Origin: an uncultured Acidobacteriia bacterium
GTDB taxonomy: Bacteria; Acidobacteriota; Terriglobia; Bryobacterales; Bryobacteraceae
Reading direction: 5' to 3'
NCBI GenBank assembly: GCA_903851195.1
Contig: CAINNJ010000049.1
Coordinates: 62,001-126,000 of the forward strand
DNA length: 64,000 nucleotides
Under the pieces are notes generated by a model, which made no database searches, was not told the origin of the DNA, and was given only the letters and a program-made list of their open reading frames with translations. Positions 53,960-60,964 of this stretch are shown piece after piece. How positions within the stretch are numbered: position 1 is the stretch's first letter; each line of letters opens with the position of its first letter. Made by a program: the position numbers and the translations under genes.

Positions 53960-55306
53960 TTACAGGTCGGTCAGATGCTCGAGTTTCCCGGTGCTGTCGC
54001 CGATAGTTTCCGGACGCACATCCATGCGGTCCAGCAGCGACATATACAGGTTCGTCAGCGGCGTTCCGTCCGGATACACCACATGCCGCCCCAGCTTAAA
54101 CGCGCCGTTGCCGCGGCCCGCGATCACCGTCGGCACGTTCTCATGCTGGTGGCGGTTCGGGTCGCACAGCGCGCTGCCGTACACCACCATCGAGTGGTCG
54201 AACAGAGTGCCGTCGCCGTCCTGCGTGGCTTTCAGCTTGTCCAGATAATACGCGAACAGCTCCACATGGAACGTATTGATCTTCGCGACCTTCTCGAGCA
54301 GATCCGGCAGGTTCCGGTGATGCGTGATCGGGTGGTGCGGATCGGGGACACCGATCTCGCCATAGGTCCGCACGCTGCCCTCGCGGCCGAACATGAACGT
54401 CGAGACGCGCGTCAGATCGGCCTGAAACGCCAGAATCTGCAGGTCGTACATCAGCTTCACGTAATCGCCGAACTCCACCGGCACGCCGGCGGGCGCTTCG
54501 ATGGACGGCTTGAACTTCGGCGCGCCGGTCTCGGCCAGCTGGATCCGCTTTTCCACTTCGCGGACTCCCGTCAGGTATTCGTCCAGCTTGTGGCGATCGC
54601 CCGGTCCCAGATCGCCCATCAGCTTGCTGGTGCGCTCGCCCGCCACGTCGAGGATGCTCTTGCGCAGCAGGGTACGGCGCGCACGGGAGGCCGCATCGAC
54701 GTTCAGATCGTCCGCGCCGAACATCCGCTCGAACACCACGCGCGGATTGGTTTCCGGAGGCATGGGAAGCGTCGGCGTGCGCCAGGAAATGCTGTTCGTA
54801 TACGCGCAGCTGAAGCCGCTGTCGCAGTTGCCGACGGTGCGGGAATCCTCGCAGCCCAGTTCCAGCGAGGCGAAGCGCGTCTTGCTGCCCACCGACGCCG
54901 CCGCGATCTGATCCGCCGAAACGCCGCCGTGGATATCCGCGCCGATGGTCTTCTTGCAGTGCACGCCGGTCAGATAGGAAGCTCCCGCGCGGGCATGATC
55001 GCCGCCGCCATCGCCCAGCGCGTTGCCGTTGTGGATATCGAGGCCGCTCAGCACCAGCATGTCCTCGCGGTACTTCGCCAGCGGCTTCAGGATCCGGCTC
55101 AGCTCATACCCGCTGCCTTCCCCGACCGGCCGCCATTCCTTATAGTTCACGCCGTTCGGGACATAGTTGAATGCCAGGCGAAGCGGCGCTTTTGCCGCCG
55201 GAGCGGTCAGCGCCGGCTCCATCGCATCCAGCATCGGCAGCGCCAGCGCCGCGCCCAAACCGCGCAACACCGTTCTGCGGGACAAGTGCTTTTTGGTGAC
55301 GATCAT
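53960..55306 (-). CDS. DUF1552 exported protein
   Basis: The 448-residue protein carries a Tat-like leader (HLSRRTVLRGLGAALALPML). The body follows the DUF1552 pattern seen in planctomycetes, acidobacteria and myxobacteria: RLAFNYVPNGVNYKEWRP, SGLDIHNGNALGDGGGDHAR, ASYLTGVHCKKTIGADIHGG, SLELGCEDSRTVGNCDSGFS, HHPITHHRNLPD and SMVVYGSALCDPNRHQHEN. The repeated His/Asp sites recall a sulfatase-like (DUF1501-type) metal fold. Its ATG overlaps the stop of the DUF1592 gene by 4 bp, so the two act together. The biochemical role is not established. Confidence 0.9.
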   Translation of the reverse strand: MIVTKKHLSRRTVLRGLGAALALPMLDAMEPALTAPAAKAPLRLAFNYVPNGVNYKEWRPVGEGSGYELSRILKPLAKYREDMLVLSGLDIHNGNALGDGGGDHARAGASYLTGVHCKKTIGADIHGGVSADQIAAASVGSKTRFASLELGCEDSRTVGNCDSGFSCAYTNSISWRTPTLPMPPETNPRVVFERMFGADDLNVDAASRARRTLLRKSILDVAGERTSKLMGDLGPGDRHKLDEYLTGVREVEKRIQLAETGAPKFKPSIEAPAGVPVEFGDYVKLMYDLQILAFQADLTRVSTFMFGREGSVRTYGEIGVPDPHHPITHHRNLPDLLEKVAKINTFHVELFAYYLDKLKATQDGDGTLFDHSMVVYGSALCDPNRHQHENVPTVIAGRGNGAFKLGRHVVYPDGTPLTNLYMSLLDRMDVRPETIGDSTGKLEHLTDL

Positions 55307-57720
55307 GTCTTGTTCTTCTCGCCTCGCTTCATCTGAAACGGCATACTGCGGACAATACCCATTACCAGTGTAGAGAATTTGTAGTCGTTCGCCGCCAGCC
55401 CGTTCACAATCTCTTTGACGGCCGCGCGATCGTAACCTTCGAGGCCGCGGCCCAGCGCGTAAGTCAGCATCTTTTCGGCGATGCAGTCCGCGAACGCCGC
55501 TTTGTTCGAAAGCAGGATCGCCTTCAGCTCCTCCGGGCCTTTAAACGTGCGGCCATCGGGCAGCAAGCCCGACGAATCGATGGGGAACTTGCCGTCCTGG
55601 TCGCGCCACTCGCCGATCGCGTTGTAGTTTTCGAGGCCAAAGCCCAGCGGATCCATTTTGGAGTGACACGACGCACAGAGCGCGTTGGCCCGATGCGCTT
55701 CCATCACCTGCCGGAGCGAGGCCGACGTGCCCGCCTTTGCCTCTTCGAGCGGCGGCACATTCGGCGGAGGCGGCGGAGGCGGCGCGTTCAGCAGATTCTC
55801 CAGCACCCACTTGCCGCGAAGCACCGGCGACGTCCGCGTCGCATAAGAAGATGCCGTCAGCACGCTCGCCTGCGTCAGGATGCCGCCCCGGTGCGTGCCG
55901 GTCAGATCCACCTGACGGAACTCGGGGCCTTTCACGGTTTTGATGCCATAGAACTCGGCAAGGCGCTGGTTCAGGAACGTGTACTTCGCGTCCAGCATCT
56001 CCAGCACGCTGCGGTCCTGCCGCATGATGTTGCCGAAGAAGAGTTCGGACTCTTTGCGCATCGAGATCCGCAGATACTCTTCGAACTGCGGGAACTTGTC
56101 GCGGTCCGGGACGGCCGACTCCAGGCGGCGCAACTCCAGCCACTGGCCCGCGAAGTTCTCCACCAGCGCGTTCGCCTTCGGATCTTTCAGCATCCGGCGG
56201 ACCTGCGCTTCGAGGCCTTCGGGCTTCCGCAGCGTCCCGGCTTCGGACGCGCGAAGCAGTTCCTCATCCGGCATGCTCGACCAGAGGAAGTAGGACAGCC
56301 GCGACGCCAGTTCGGTCGGCGTTACCGGCACGGAATCGGCGCTCACGGGCGGATTTTTCTCCACGCGGAAGAGGAAATCCGGCGAGACCATCAGGCCTTC
56401 GATCGCGGTGGCGATGCCGTCCGCGAACGTGCCGCCCTGCTTCTGGGTCAGGGCGATCAGCTTCAGGTACGGCGCGATTTCCTGCTGCGTCACCGGGCGG
56501 CGGAAAGCCCGGCGGGCCATGGCGGCGACGATCTTCCGGTCACAGCCCGCGACGTGTTTCCCATCGAGGTGCCCGCACGTGTAGATCTTCGCCAGACTCT
56601 CCGGCGAAGCGCCTTTCGTCTGGTTATACGGCCCGATGACTTCCACATAGTGGATGTAGGCGCGGTTAGCGGGCGCGCGGATTAGCGCGATTTTCAACTG
56701 CGCTTCTTTCCGAAGTTTGGCCGCTTCCTCCGCCGTGGCATTGGCGGGGATTTTGAGGAACCGCGAAATATCCGGCGCGGGCGGTTCCGGCAGATTCGAC
56801 GGCTTCGGCCCTTCGTAGCTCTTCGGCAGCCCTTCATAAATATGAAGGACCGTGCCCGCCAGCCAGTGCTCGCCAGCCGGGACGCGCATGCGGAATTCCT
56901 TCGCCATGCCGAAGAGATCGAGCGTATTGCCTTCCTGCGGCGCGTCGTCGACCACCAGCGTTTTCACGAGTTTGCCGTCCAGCCAGACACCCATCTCAAT
57001 GGGATCGGAACCGGTTGGGCGCCGTCCCTCCGGCACCAGGCGGATCAGATACTCGCCATCCACCGGGAAGCGGTGCATCCAGTGCAGGGACTGCGGCATG
57101 CTGAGGCCCGTGGTATCGTAACCGAACTCCGGCTTCTGCGTCAGTTCGTACTCGCGATAGGGCGGCTGGTAGCGCTCAACGAGGGGCTTCATGTTGTCCC
57201 GTCCGAAGAGGGCCGTATGGACCATTTTTTCGGCAGTGACCATGTACTTTTCCATCAGCACGGGAGAGAGCGACAGCACCGTGCCGATGTTGTCGAAACC
57301 GAAACCGGAATCGTCCTGCGGGAAGTCGTCGGCCGGGCGGAGGTCCACCCCCAGCAGGTCGCGGACGGTGTTGTTGTACTCGGCCCGATTCAGGCGGCGC
57401 GCGGTGATGTGACCGGCGTCCGGCTTCATCGCTTTTTCCTGCCGCTGTAACTCGCCTTCGATCCACTTCGTCACGGCCGCGGCCTGCGTGGCGTCGGGGC
57501 GCGGCAGACCTTTCGGCGGCATTTCGCCGTTGCGGATCTTTTCGAGAACACGCGACCAGACTTCTCCGGTCTTTTCGGCTTCCAGATCCAGATCGGCGGT
57601 CTTCAGTTTGGAGTTGTGACAGCTGTAACAATTCTTCGAGAGGAACGGCTGTACCGTCTGGTCAGTGGGCGTAGCGGCGAAACAGAGCGGAGCGAGGACA
57701 ATCGCAAACAGGGGCCGCAT
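55303..57720 (-). CDS. DUF1592/DUF1587-type exported multidomain cytochrome c
   Basis: From ATG 57720 (MRPLFAIVLAPLCFA) the protein is 805 residues. An N-terminal heme-binding CYSCH (31-35) is followed by DUF1587 (RRLNRAEYNNTVRDLLGVDL), a carbohydrate-binding-like region, DUF1595/DUF1592 (RRAFRRPVTQQEIAPYL; LASRLSYFLWSSMPDEELLR), DUF1588 (HRGGILTQASVLTASSYATR, then CASCHSKMDPLGFGLENYNA with C682, C685, H686) and DUF1585 (MLTYALGRGLEGYDRAAVKE). A run of seven prolines links domains near residue 647. The pair with DUF1552 is typical of surface electron-transfer or polymer-degradation systems. TATAAT on the minus strand (57741-57736) implies a short leader. Confidence 0.92.
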   Translation of the reverse strand: MRPLFAIVLAPLCFAATPTDQTVQPFLSKNCYSCHNSKLKTADLDLEAEKTGEVWSRVLEKIRNGEMPPKGLPRPDATQAAAVTKWIEGELQRQEKAMKPDAGHITARRLNRAEYNNTVRDLLGVDLRPADDFPQDDSGFGFDNIGTVLSLSPVLMEKYMVTAEKMVHTALFGRDNMKPLVERYQPPYREYELTQKPEFGYDTTGLSMPQSLHWMHRFPVDGEYLIRLVPEGRRPTGSDPIEMGVWLDGKLVKTLVVDDAPQEGNTLDLFGMAKEFRMRVPAGEHWLAGTVLHIYEGLPKSYEGPKPSNLPEPPAPDISRFLKIPANATAEEAAKLRKEAQLKIALIRAPANRAYIHYVEVIGPYNQTKGASPESLAKIYTCGHLDGKHVAGCDRKIVAAMARRAFRRPVTQQEIAPYLKLIALTQKQGGTFADGIATAIEGLMVSPDFLFRVEKNPPVSADSVPVTPTELASRLSYFLWSSMPDEELLRASEAGTLRKPEGLEAQVRRMLKDPKANALVENFAGQWLELRRLESAVPDRDKFPQFEEYLRISMRKESELFFGNIMRQDRSVLEMLDAKYTFLNQRLAEFYGIKTVKGPEFRQVDLTGTHRGGILTQASVLTASSYATRTSPVLRGKWVLENLLNAPPPPPPPNVPPLEEAKAGTSASLRQVMEAHRANALCASCHSKMDPLGFGLENYNAIGEWRDQDGKFPIDSSGLLPDGRTFKGPEELKAILLSNKAAFADCIAEKMLTYALGRGLEGYDRAAVKEIVNGLAANDYKFSTLVMGIVRSMPFQMKRGEKNKT

Positions 57721-57777
57721 AGAGAGGATGAACCAATTATAAGCCCTCAAATTTGCCGTTCGGCAGGCGAAATCGAC

Positions 57778-57802
57778 GGTTGGTCGGTTTATCGAACCAA
57801 CC
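57778..57802. promoter_or_regulatory. Inverted repeat upstream of the ABC exporter operon
   Basis: GGTTGGT (57778-57784) and ACCAACC (57796-57802) are perfect 7-bp arms around an 11-bp centre, in the divergent gap between the DUF1592 gene and the ABC ATPase gene. The 25-bp size suits a dimeric TetR- or MarR-like repressor. No such regulator is next to it. Confidence 0.45.
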
Positions 57803-57836
57803 ACGCGCCGCACTCGTTACTCTGAAACGGAAGCGT

Positions 57837-58766
57837 ATGAGCCAACACAACGCGATCTCCGTCAAGGGACTTCGCAAGAGCTATGGTGATTTCGAGGCCG
57901 TCAAAGGCATCGATTTCGAGGTCCACACGGGCGAGGTCTTCGGACTGCTGGGGCCGAACGGCGCCGGGAAAACAACGACCGTCGAGATTCTGGAGGGCAT
58001 CCGGCAGCGCACCGCCGGGGACGTCCGGGTGCTCGACCTCGATCCCGACAAACAGAAGAAACAGCTGAAGGACCGGATCGGCGTCTGTTTGCAGGCCACC
58101 AACCTGCCCGACAAGATCAAGGTGATCGAGGCCCTGCAGTTGTTCGGCGCGCTTTACAGCCGCATGCAGGATCCCGACGAACTGCTGAAGCGGCTGCAGT
58201 TAAGCGACAAACGGGACGCTTTCTACTCGACGCTTTCGGGCGGGCAGAAGCAGCGTCTGGCGATTGCGCTGGGGATGATCAACGATCCCTCCCTGCTGTT
58301 TCTGGACGAGCCGACGACCGGCCTCGATCCGCAGGTCCGCCTCGAGATCCACTCGCTGATCGAGCAGATGCGCGGCCAGAAATGCACCATTCTGATGACG
58401 ACGCATTACATCGAAGAGGCCGAGCGGCTGTGCGACCGGGTGGCGATTGTGGATTCCGGGAAGGTGATCGCGATCGGGACGCCGCGGGAACTGGTGGAGC
58501 GCAGCGTGGGCAAATCGGCGATTGAGATTGTCTGCGAGCGATCGCTGGACGGGCTGGCGATGCCGGAGTGGCCGGGGGCGACCGGCACCAAACTGAGTGA
58601 AGACCGGCGGCGGCTGACGGTAACCTCCGCGCGGCCGGCCCCGACGCTGGTGGAGATGGTGAAGTGGGTGGACGCGCAGGGACTAGGACTCGAAGACGTC
58701 CACCTGAAGCGTCCCACGCTGGAAGACGTGTTTATCGAACTGACGGGCAAGAGGCTGCGCGACTGA
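57837..58766 (+). CDS. ABC-2 type exporter, ATP-binding subunit
   Basis: From ATG 57837 (MSQHNAISVKGLRKSYGDFE), preceded by GGAAG, the protein is 309 residues. Walker A is GPNGAGKTT (39-47), the Q-loop is IGVCLQATNL, the signature is STLSGGQKQRLAIALG, Walker B is LLFLDEPTTGLD and the switch is MTTHYIEEAERLC. The C-terminal extension (PTLEDVFIELTGKRLRD) is typical of drug/antibiotic exporters of the CcmA/DrrA type. Its stop overlaps the start of the permease-amidohydrolase fusion (TGATG), so the two should assemble. Confidence 0.94.
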   Translation: MSQHNAISVKGLRKSYGDFEAVKGIDFEVHTGEVFGLLGPNGAGKTTTVEILEGIRQRTAGDVRVLDLDPDKQKKQLKDRIGVCLQATNLPDKIKVIEALQLFGALYSRMQDPDELLKRLQLSDKRDAFYSTLSGGQKQRLAIALGMINDPSLLFLDEPTTGLDPQVRLEIHSLIEQMRGQKCTILMTTHYIEEAERLCDRVAIVDSGKVIAIGTPRELVERSVGKSAIEIVCERSLDGLAMPEWPGATGTKLSEDRRRLTVTSARPAPTLVEMVKWVDAQGLGLEDVHLKRPTLEDVFIELTGKRLRD

Positions 58767-60964
58767 TGAAAACTTATCTGGCACTGATCCGGAACGAAAT
58801 CCGGCTGGCTTACCGGCAAAAGATGGTGATTTTTTTCAATTACCTGATGCCGATGATCTTCTTTTTTGTATTCGCGCAGACGAGCCATGCCGAACAGGGC
58901 GGCGCGATCACGCAGGTGTTCACGATGGTGACGGTGATCGGCATCCTCGGCAACGGGCTCTTCGGCGGGGGCATGCGCGCCGTGCAGGAACGCGAAACGA
59001 ACATCCTGCGCCGTTATAAGGTGGCGCCGATTTCTCCGCTGCCGCTGCTGGTGGCCTCCACGGTGACGGGGCTGGTGGTTTATCTGCCGTACGTGGTGCT
59101 GATGCTGATTCTGGCGAAGGTTCGCTACGGGATGACGATGCCGCCGAACGTAGTGACCGTGATGCTCTTCATCACGCTGGGCGTGGTGGCAGTCAGGTCG
59201 ATCGGGCTGATTATTGCGTCGGTGGTGAACTCCATGCAGGAGAGCAACGTTCTGATTCAGATCGTCTATATGACGATGCTGTTCCTGAGCGGCACCACGT
59301 TCCCGCCGTCGATGTTTCCGGCGTGGCTGCTGACGCTGACCCAGTTCATTCCGTCCACGTGGCTGGTGACGGGGCTGCAGGGGATTCTGCTGCGCCAGGA
59401 ATCGCTGGCGGCGAACTGGCAGGCGGCGGGAGCGCTGATTCTCACCACGTGCGTGGGGCTGCTGCTCTGCGTGAAGCTCTTCCGCTGGGAGAAAGAAGAG
59501 AAGATCCGGCCGGCGGCAAAGCTGTGGCTGCTGGCGGTGCTGGTGCCGTTCGCGGTGCTGGGCACGTGGCAGGCGTACGCGAAGGACAACGTCCGGAAGA
59601 CCAAGGTGCTCGACCGGCAACTGGACCGCAGCCGCACCATGCTGATCCGCAACGCGCGTATTTTCGTCGGCGACGGCCGCGTGATCGAGAACGGCGCGGT
59701 GCTGGTGAAGAACGGCAAGATCGAAGAGGTTTACGACGGCAACATCCCGGATCCGAAGAGCGTGAACGCTGGCGTGATCGAGGCGGCGGGGAAGACGATT
59801 CTGCCGGGCCTGATCGACACCCATGTACATCTGGGCTCGCCGGGCGGCACTCTTGACGACTGGAAAGACTACGATGCGGTGAAGGCTTCCGAGCGGGCGC
59901 TGGCGGCGTATCTGTATAGCGGCGTGACGGCGGTGCGGAGCGTGGGCGATGCGCTGGACGGGTCGCTGAAAGTGCGGGAGATCGTCAACAGCGGCGAGAA
60001 ACTGGGTGCCGAGTTCCTGCTGGTGGGCCCGTTGTTCACGGCGCCAGGCGGGCATGGCACCGAGTTCGCGAAGAACATGCCGGAGAACTTCCGGCAGCAG
60101 TTCGACGCACAGTTTCTGCGGATGCCGAAGACTGCCGAAGAAGCCCGGCAGAACGTGGACGCGCTGAAGAAGGCGGGCGTGGACGGGATCAAGGCAGTGA
60201 TGGAATCGGGCGCGGGCAGCTTCGTGTTCAACCGGCTGGACACGCAGATTCTGGATGCGGTGGGCGCCGCGGCGAAGGCGGACGGGCTGCCTATGGTGGT
60301 GCACACGGGCGACGTGCGCGATATTAAAGATGCCCTGCATGCCGGCGCGAACGGGATTGAACACGGGTCTTTCCGGGAGCGGATTCCGGACGAAGTTTTT
60401 AAAGCGATGGCGATGAACGGGGTGACATACGATCCGACGCTCAGCGTGGCGGAGGCGTTCCGGCAGTTCGCGGCGGGTATGCCGGATTTGTTGAGCCGGT
60501 CGCTGGTGCAGCAGGTGGTGCCGGCGAAGATGCTGGCGGCGACGCGGAAGAGTATGTCGTCGCCGGAAGCGCTGGAGCGGCGGAAATCGATCGGAGAGTT
60601 TCCGATGGATATGCCGGTAGCGAGGGACAACCTGCTGCGGGCATGGCGGGCCGGGGTGACGCTGGTGACGGGCAGCGATGCGGGGAACATGCTGGTGTTC
60701 CACGGCCCGACGGTGCAGCACGAGATGCAGCTCTGGGTGGAGGCGGGAATTCCGATTCCGGTGGCGCTGCAGGCCGCCACCCTGAATGCGGCGAGATCAC
60801 TCCGGGCGGGTAGCCGGTTCGGGTCGCTGGAGAAGGGGAAGGACGCCACGCTGCTGGTGGTGGACGGAAATGCGCTGCAGGATATCAGGGCCACGGAATC
60901 GATATCTATGGTGATGCTGAAAGGGGAGCGGGTGAACCGGGCGGAACTGTTCAACCAGGAGTGA
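58766..60964 (+). CDS. ABC-2 permease fused to a metal-dependent amidohydrolase
   Basis: The 732-residue protein starts MKTYLALIRNEIRLAYRQKM. Residues about 1-240 form an ABC-2 permease with six helices (including SPLPLLVASTVTGLVVYLPY and LSGTTFPPSMFPAWLLTLTQ). A seventh helix follows at about 250-272 (KLWLLAVLVPFAVLGTWQAY). Residues 290-732 are a complete amidohydrolase of the imidazolonepropionase/prolidase-like group: H353 and H355 (IDTHVHLGS), K476 (DGIKAVMES), H513 (HTGD), H533 (EHGS) and D638 (TGSDAG), ending LEKGKDATLLVVDG. There is no stop, ribosome-binding site or frame change between the halves. The odd number of helices would place the enzyme outside the cytoplasm. Confidence 0.9.
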   Translation: MKTYLALIRNEIRLAYRQKMVIFFNYLMPMIFFFVFAQTSHAEQGGAITQVFTMVTVIGILGNGLFGGGMRAVQERETNILRRYKVAPISPLPLLVASTVTGLVVYLPYVVLMLILAKVRYGMTMPPNVVTVMLFITLGVVAVRSIGLIIASVVNSMQESNVLIQIVYMTMLFLSGTTFPPSMFPAWLLTLTQFIPSTWLVTGLQGILLRQESLAANWQAAGALILTTCVGLLLCVKLFRWEKEEKIRPAAKLWLLAVLVPFAVLGTWQAYAKDNVRKTKVLDRQLDRSRTMLIRNARIFVGDGRVIENGAVLVKNGKIEEVYDGNIPDPKSVNAGVIEAAGKTILPGLIDTHVHLGSPGGTLDDWKDYDAVKASERALAAYLYSGVTAVRSVGDALDGSLKVREIVNSGEKLGAEFLLVGPLFTAPGGHGTEFAKNMPENFRQQFDAQFLRMPKTAEEARQNVDALKKAGVDGIKAVMESGAGSFVFNRLDTQILDAVGAAAKADGLPMVVHTGDVRDIKDALHAGANGIEHGSFRERIPDEVFKAMAMNGVTYDPTLSVAEAFRQFAAGMPDLLSRSLVQQVVPAKMLAATRKSMSSPEALERRKSIGEFPMDMPVARDNLLRAWRAGVTLVTGSDAGNMLVFHGPTVQHEMQLWVEAGIPIPVALQAATLNAARSLRAGSRFGSLEKGKDATLLVVDGNALQDIRATESISMVMLKGERVNRAELFNQE

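Follow-up and report, generated by a model that had tools for sequence, protein, structure and literature searches.

An ABC-2 permease fused to an amidohydrolase in Bryobacteraceae, with an attached module that may have outlasted its metal site in many lineages

In a stretch of 64,000 nucleotides from an uncultured Acidobacteriia bacterium of the family Bryobacteraceae (GenBank assembly GCA_903851195.1, contig CAINNJ010000049.1, positions 62,001 to 126,000 of the forward strand; hereafter the window), one gene encodes an ATP-binding cassette (ABC)-2 permease and an amidohydrolase in a single chain, directly behind the gene of its ABC ATPase. From the comparison with fused relatives we consider it likely, though by no means certain, that this is an ABC-2 exporter in which a seventh, outward-leading membrane helix carries an amidohydrolase-derived module with a lasting structural or binding role. 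The metal site of the module was repeatedly lost while its beta-sandwich and the linker helix stayed, so the lasting role is read as something other than catalysis. In the mechanism that we propose, the fused protein would be the membrane subunit of a two-gene exporter, with a six-helix core and with helix 7 turning the C-terminus outward, and each pump would be assembled from two fused chains and two ATPases, as expected from the ABC-2 family, so that a pair of modules would sit next to its exit. The module would derive from a secreted, metal-dependent hydrolase of the Xaa-Pro dipeptidase/arginine carboxypeptidase/ochratoxinase group, which joined a pre-existing outward-facing permease tail. 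It may now serve as a scaffold, a cap or a cargo-binding platform at the pump exit, and hydrolysis of the exported compound or of its leader would be an extra function kept in some lineages.

A sequence-only reading of this DNA, made without database searches, had described one uninterrupted 732-codon frame joining the permease to the amidohydrolase, and this was borne out: positions 58766-60964 form a single open frame of that length with no break, and both Pfam domains lie in the same chain, ABC2_membrane at residues 5-208 (74.3 bits, cut-off 26.9) and Amidohydro_1 at residues 344-723 (107.3 bits, cut-off 25). The coupling of the ATPase gene through TGATG, also part of that reading, was found in the sequence as a one-base overlap, the TGA at 58764-58766 sharing its last base with the ATG at 58766-58768. 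The ATPase contains GPNGAGKTT, LSGGQKQR and LLFLDEP, intact by eye, which we take to be its Walker A, signature and Walker B motifs. An AlphaFold model of the fused protein from 32 sequences (mean predicted local distance difference test [pLDDT] 88.9, predicted template modelling score [pTM] 0.85) showed, in this order, six membrane helices, a helix at residues 249-272, a short helix of charged character (274-288) and the enzyme.

Search of related genomes for the same architecture showed that the fusion is conserved and not unique to one assembly. An unbroken match that starts no later than residue 5 and ends no earlier than residue 730 was found for 28 of the 61 own-family genomes (Bryobacteraceae) among the matches listed, and for 0 of 40 genomes of other families among the matches listed, best first. 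A profile search gave a match at E ≤1e-30 in 199 of 237 genomes of the own family, the weaker of which probably include unfused enzymes and permeases. We aligned 138 fused frames, nearly all from the own family and several on contigs of 4-9 Mb; this set samples the 237 genomes without covering them exhaustively, and several matches that lay at contig ends or ranked lower were left out of it. Dropped beforehand were duplicates (L009, L035, L036, L043, L044, L045, L065, L066), unfused outgroups (L060-L064), two loci with permease only (L055, L057), one at a contig end (L058), one with a frame change (L053) and one with an internal TAG (L095). L038 and L059 are the same place and yielded no permease frame. 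L186, L188, L190 and L192 stand outside the count; L186 has a complete metal site and the other three are shortened by eye, L188 and L192 coming from single-contig genomes. In 135 of the 138 loci, the ATPase gene precedes the fused gene on the same strand, at a distance of at most 200 bases. The exceptions are L115 and L164, both truncated by a contig end, and L139, where no ATPase match was found.

Four loci deserve a separate remark. In L139 (G208), the fused gene sits on a very long branch and has an odd letter make-up, with no ATPase match adjoining. L186 (G326) has a full-length fused gene, and its genome is assigned to another family with 9% contamination, so the locus may represent transfer or contamination. 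The in-frame TAG of L095 (G259) interrupts the gene around residue 267, where helix 7 ends, and splits the permease from the enzyme; it may be a sequencing error or a real split. The frame change of L053 (G001) lies near residue 460, and its two overlapping frames are each about 71% identical to the window protein.

All six metal-site residues named in the sequence-only reading (H353, H355, K476, H513, H533 and D638) are present in the window protein, and in an alignment they fall on the matching motifs of the Xaa-Pro dipeptidase 2qs8. With its metal site complete, the enzyme in the window is probably active. The full set of six is retained in 85 of the 138 fused proteins; 13 have three to five of the residues, another 13 have one or two and 27 have none, which means that at least one is missing in 53. 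H430 of the GGHG motif is found in all 85 complete proteins. Large in-frame losses within the barrel have shortened 32 of the 138 proteins, and residues 462-529 are absent in at least 80% of these. To follow both states we used a tree built on the permease and the ATPase, which is hence independent of the decaying part. On this quick tree, in which 33 of 145 inner branches are weak, the complete/incomplete state changes 20 times (at least 15 changes forced by well supported branches) and the shortened/long state 10 times (at least 9 forced). Since lost segments are unlikely to return, these changes are read as mostly losses. Decay is also graded within one well supported clade, where L098 and L102 are without H513 only and L092 and L116 are also without K476.

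The damaged domains are under purifying selection and are not junk. The ratio of nonsynonymous to synonymous substitution rates (dN/dS) of the C-terminal part ranged from 0.052 to 0.257 across 19 incomplete-site pairs and from 0.058 to 0.148 across 14 of 15 complete-site pairs (the 15th was not computable), as obtained with a simple counting method from pairs that share rows and with some synonymous distances near saturation. The two halves of the beta-sandwich were as well conserved in shortened proteins as in complete ones (residues 291-347, 0.66 in both classes; residues 691-728, 0.72 against 0.71), and the barrel segments were less conserved in the shortened ones; these values are not strictly comparable because there are fewer shortened proteins and they are more clustered. 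In the model of a shortened protein (pLDDT 86.3), the sandwich strands are in place. A Foldseek comparison of this model with solved structures returned amidohydrolase matches with poor superposition (root-mean-square deviation 8-15), so this comparison is no guide to what the remnant looks like.

The sequence-only reading had placed a seventh helix between the two domains, and the model agrees; its mean octanol score over the 138 rows is -9.0, and those of the six core helices run from -5.8 to -15.6. ABC-2 permeases usually have a non-crossing outer hairpin, and on this basis the broken segment at residues 186-209 was left out of the count. The model has seven helices if this hairpin does not cross, and hydropathy alone is compatible with an eighth. 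The charge pattern of the core (138 rows) fits an N-terminus inside, and helix 7 should therefore lead out. Among 28 unfused enzyme relatives, 25 have an export-signal-like hydrophobic segment before the domain by a crude hydropathy rule, and five have a lipobox by pattern. Such segments in most of the unfused enzymes make an outside location likely, and on sequence grounds we regard the outer face of the membrane as the likely place of the amidohydrolase module.

Helix 7 was not acquired in order to move the enzyme outward. By eye, the same helix is present in unfused permeases of other families (L060-L064, L178, L179, L181 and L187); in L060, for example, LFRWEPGEK is followed by KLWAVATILPFLLLGAWE and a short tail. 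Judged from these sequences, helix 7 predates the fusion. A leftover signal peptide of the enzyme was ruled out as its origin for the same reason, because unfused permeases elsewhere carry the helix.

A second fusion was found in another family of the class. In 2 of 39 genomes there (L176, L177), the same permease type is joined to an amidohydrolase and a further domain, in open frames of 869 and 904 amino acids with the six metal residues complete. The further domain of L177 is CIA30 (29.1 bits, cut-off 24, Pfam), and that of L176 was assigned by sequence match to L177. In a tree of 53 amidohydrolase domains, L176 and L177 group with full support with the separate, secreted-looking L207 and L208 (57-59% identity), and 23 fused proteins of the first family form one clade apart from them. 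A single fusion origin for both families was rejected by this tree and by the approximately unbiased (AU) test (p 3.2e-5). On this evidence, a secreted amidohydrolase was joined to helix 7 a second time, independently of the first. The C-terminal domain of L177 recurs in L207 and L208 at about 51% identity, and the attached piece was therefore probably an entire secreted enzyme of two domains. In L180, the permease is followed by a CIA30 domain 66% identical to that of L177 and by no amidohydrolase; its sequence suggests that the enzyme was probably lost and the beta-sandwich kept. L182 and L191 also combine permease and CIA30 (24.9 bits each, just above the cut-off), and since these domains are only 21-23% identical to that of L177, a separate attachment may have occurred.

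A separate permease branch (L184 from G016, of the genus of the window, with L174 and L175) ends in a proline-rich linker and an extra domain. This terminal domain, with a motif like WQxVTxxxI...LPPDSGxVTP, had no Pfam match.

Two separately acquired amidohydrolases, the CIA30 beta-sandwiches and the proline-rich tail with its domain are the attachments counted in a wider reading, which we put forward tentatively and would sooner doubt than believe: helix 7 would be an outer mounting point for secreted domains, gained repeatedly, on which enzymes repeatedly became a cargo-gating or cargo-receiving beta-sandwich at the pump exit. If true, it would amount to a recurrent enzyme-to-scaffold conversion inside a transporter.

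Several observations weigh against an outward-facing module with a lasting role, as do the limits given above for the tree, the substitution rates and the conservation values. The outer hairpin 184-212 has a mean octanol score of -5.9, and of -11.2 in the window protein, like a membrane helix, so the claim of a seventh helix stands on model and hydropathy with a count that omits a hydrophobic hairpin. After helix 7 there are on average 5.5 lysines and arginines to 2.2 aspartates and glutamates, compared with 4.9 to 2.9 in the inner loop before it, and the positive-inside rule does not favour an outer location after helix 7. The outside placement of the enzyme thus has the export-signal-like segments of its unfused relatives on one side and these unfavourable charges on the other. 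The incomplete C-terminal part evolves faster than the permease: the ratio of C-terminal to permease dN is 1.4-10 in incomplete pairs and 0.8-3.2 in complete ones. Finally, permeases without the module exist, and the module can therefore be lost altogether. L055 (G002, of the own genus) and L057 stop soon after helix 7, with no enzyme remnant detected nearby, and L185 and L189, which belong to another family of the class, likewise end there and nest in the fused group with a support of 93 on a further quick tree. Beyond the end of the unit, L055 has the same neighbour as L194 (1047 aligned residues, 79%) and therefore probably represents the same place minus the module.

Among the other explanations, the closest to the sequence-only reading is that the pump exports a compound and hydrolyses it, or its carrier, as it leaves. 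As a general function this cannot hold, because the 53 proteins with missing metal residues, 27 of them with none left, are under continued purifying selection. In its wider form, the enzyme would be what the fusion is for, the hydrolase would act on the departing compound, leader or carrier, and the dead forms would be lineages with a changed substrate. This would agree with the complete site in the window and in 85 of 138 proteins, with H430 in every one of these 85, with the low dN/dS of the complete forms and with an independent second fusion that has all six metal residues (L176, L177). The roughly 20 changes in completeness of the site, the at least 9 changes for the shortened form, the purifying selection on what remains, and the fact that no substrate-making gene recurs beside the unit in the loci compared (flanks short in several) make it rather unlikely in our judgement.

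At residue 272, where helix 7 ends, 136 of the 138 fused proteins have A, S or T, and several unfused permeases carry other residues at this position by eye. It could be argued that the fused gene encodes a polyprotein, helix 7 being an internal export signal behind which signal peptidase cuts after residue 272 and frees a periplasmic module. The window protein reads AYA-KDN after the helix, residue 272 is restricted as just described, a simple -3/-1 rule is satisfied by 94 of the 138, and the model breaks the helix at 273. But 44 of the 138 miss the rule, 36 have T at -1, and helix 7 occurs in unfused permeases as well, so that we hold cleavage to be improbable. Very improbable, too, is mere tethering, in which the substrates of pump and enzyme are unrelated and the fusion only anchors a secreted enzyme to the membrane: the unfused enzyme relatives do look secreted, but the damaged modules are kept under purifying selection, and an enzyme anchor is not expected to outlive a dead enzyme. 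An assembly or annotation artefact (an assembly error, stop or frameshift at the junction), for which only the TAG of L095 and the frame change of L053 could speak, can practically be dismissed, because 138 relatives share the single frame and the junction residues G266 (138/138), R284 (137/138) and R288 (135/138) are nearly invariant. The exporter with an outward, lasting module is the reading that we favour, and the features of the unit are listed in Table 1.

Table 1 Features of the two-gene unit in the window
Feature	Positions	Strand	Evidence
ABC ATPase gene (309 aa), partner of the fused permease	57837..58766	+	Pfam ABC_tran, 103.9 bits
TGATG overlap of ATPase stop and fused-gene start	58764..58768	+	sequence
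Fused gene (732 aa): ABC-2 permease, seventh helix, amidohydrolase	58766..60964	+	frame, Pfam, model
Residues 1-248, six-helix ABC-2 permease core	58766..59509	+	Pfam ABC2_membrane; model helices
Residues 249-272, seventh membrane helix, apparently older than the fusion	59510..59581	+	model, hydropathy (138 rows), unfused relatives by eye
Residues 274-288, charged linker helix	59585..59629	+	model; R284 137/138, R288 135/138
Residues 291-347, first half of the amidohydrolase beta-sandwich	59636..59806	+	strands in both models; conservation
Residues 348-690, amidohydrolase barrel with H353, H355, K476, H513, H533, D638	59807..60835	+	sequence, 2qs8 alignment
Residues 691-728, second half of the beta-sandwich	60836..60949	+	model; conservation

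No larger conserved operon was seen when the open frames of 14 loci (flanks of about 1.5-16 kb) were compared with four queries (the window, L042, L194 and L195); only the ATPase and the fused frames recur widely. An upstream frame is common to L042, L050 and L188, and in L042 it looks DJ-1/PfpI-like by eye. In the window, two genes on the minus strand (53960-57813) adjoin the unit and are divergent from it. They are 82 and 88% identical to a pair in G009 (L194) that lies upstream of the unit in matching order and orientation; in L194 the pair sits about 1.8 kb further from the unit, and it is unmatched in the other loci compared.

To our knowledge, depictions of simple two-gene ABC-2 exporters usually show nothing large on the exit side. 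Here, much of one bacterial family bears a large fused module that would lie there, and members of a second family appear to have gained one independently. The complete, half-dead and dead versions offer a natural experiment on the role of an extracytoplasmic module for an ABC-2 pump, and they form a clear case of an enzyme apparently turning scaffold many times in parallel.

No described transporter of the same design was found in searches of an open-access library of papers, in line with the sequence-only reading, although this proves little. Each half is a well known family, and the apparent repeated change from enzyme to scaffold is the aspect most likely to be surprising. Neither half reaches the NCBIfam cut-off of a named subfamily among the best 25 matches. 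The unit resembles DrrAB/NodIJ-type ABC-2 exporters in having two genes and a permease that matches Pfam ABC2_membrane, and its ATPase scores best with the DrrA model TIGR01188 (265.4 bits), followed by NodI models. However, the ATPase stays below the cut-off of TIGR01188 (312.45 bits), the permease reaches 43.6 bits against a cut-off of 223.05 for the DrrB model TIGR01247, and, unlike these exporters, it has a seventh helix and a C-terminal module. Among solved permease relatives, three ABCG23-like sequences matched at E 1e-9 and none was closer.

The module shares the six metal residues with the group of Xaa-Pro dipeptidase, L-Arg/Lys carboxypeptidase and ochratoxinase (2qs8, 3mtw, 3be7, 8ihq, 4c5y), and its fold is that of 2qs8 (Foldseek TM-score by target length 0.85, E 5.3e-26). 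It differs from this group in its fusion to a permease and in the many fused relatives without a metal site, and it scores only 163.5 bits with the Xaa-Pro dipeptidase equivalog NF051886, whose cut-off is 500. ABC-2 permeases joined to an M1 aminopeptidase, an enzyme family other than that of the window, exist in database annotation, and the combination of a pump with a hydrolase is thus not entirely without precedent; the own genome gave four M1 matches, with no permease in the two frames examined, one of them in part. MacB-family ABC transporters carry a periplasmic domain between helices, with a fold other than that of the window module. PCAT transporters, like the window protein, combine exporter and hydrolase in one chain, but their peptidase is N-terminal and cytoplasmic, whereas the amidohydrolase-derived module described here is C-terminal and likely outside.

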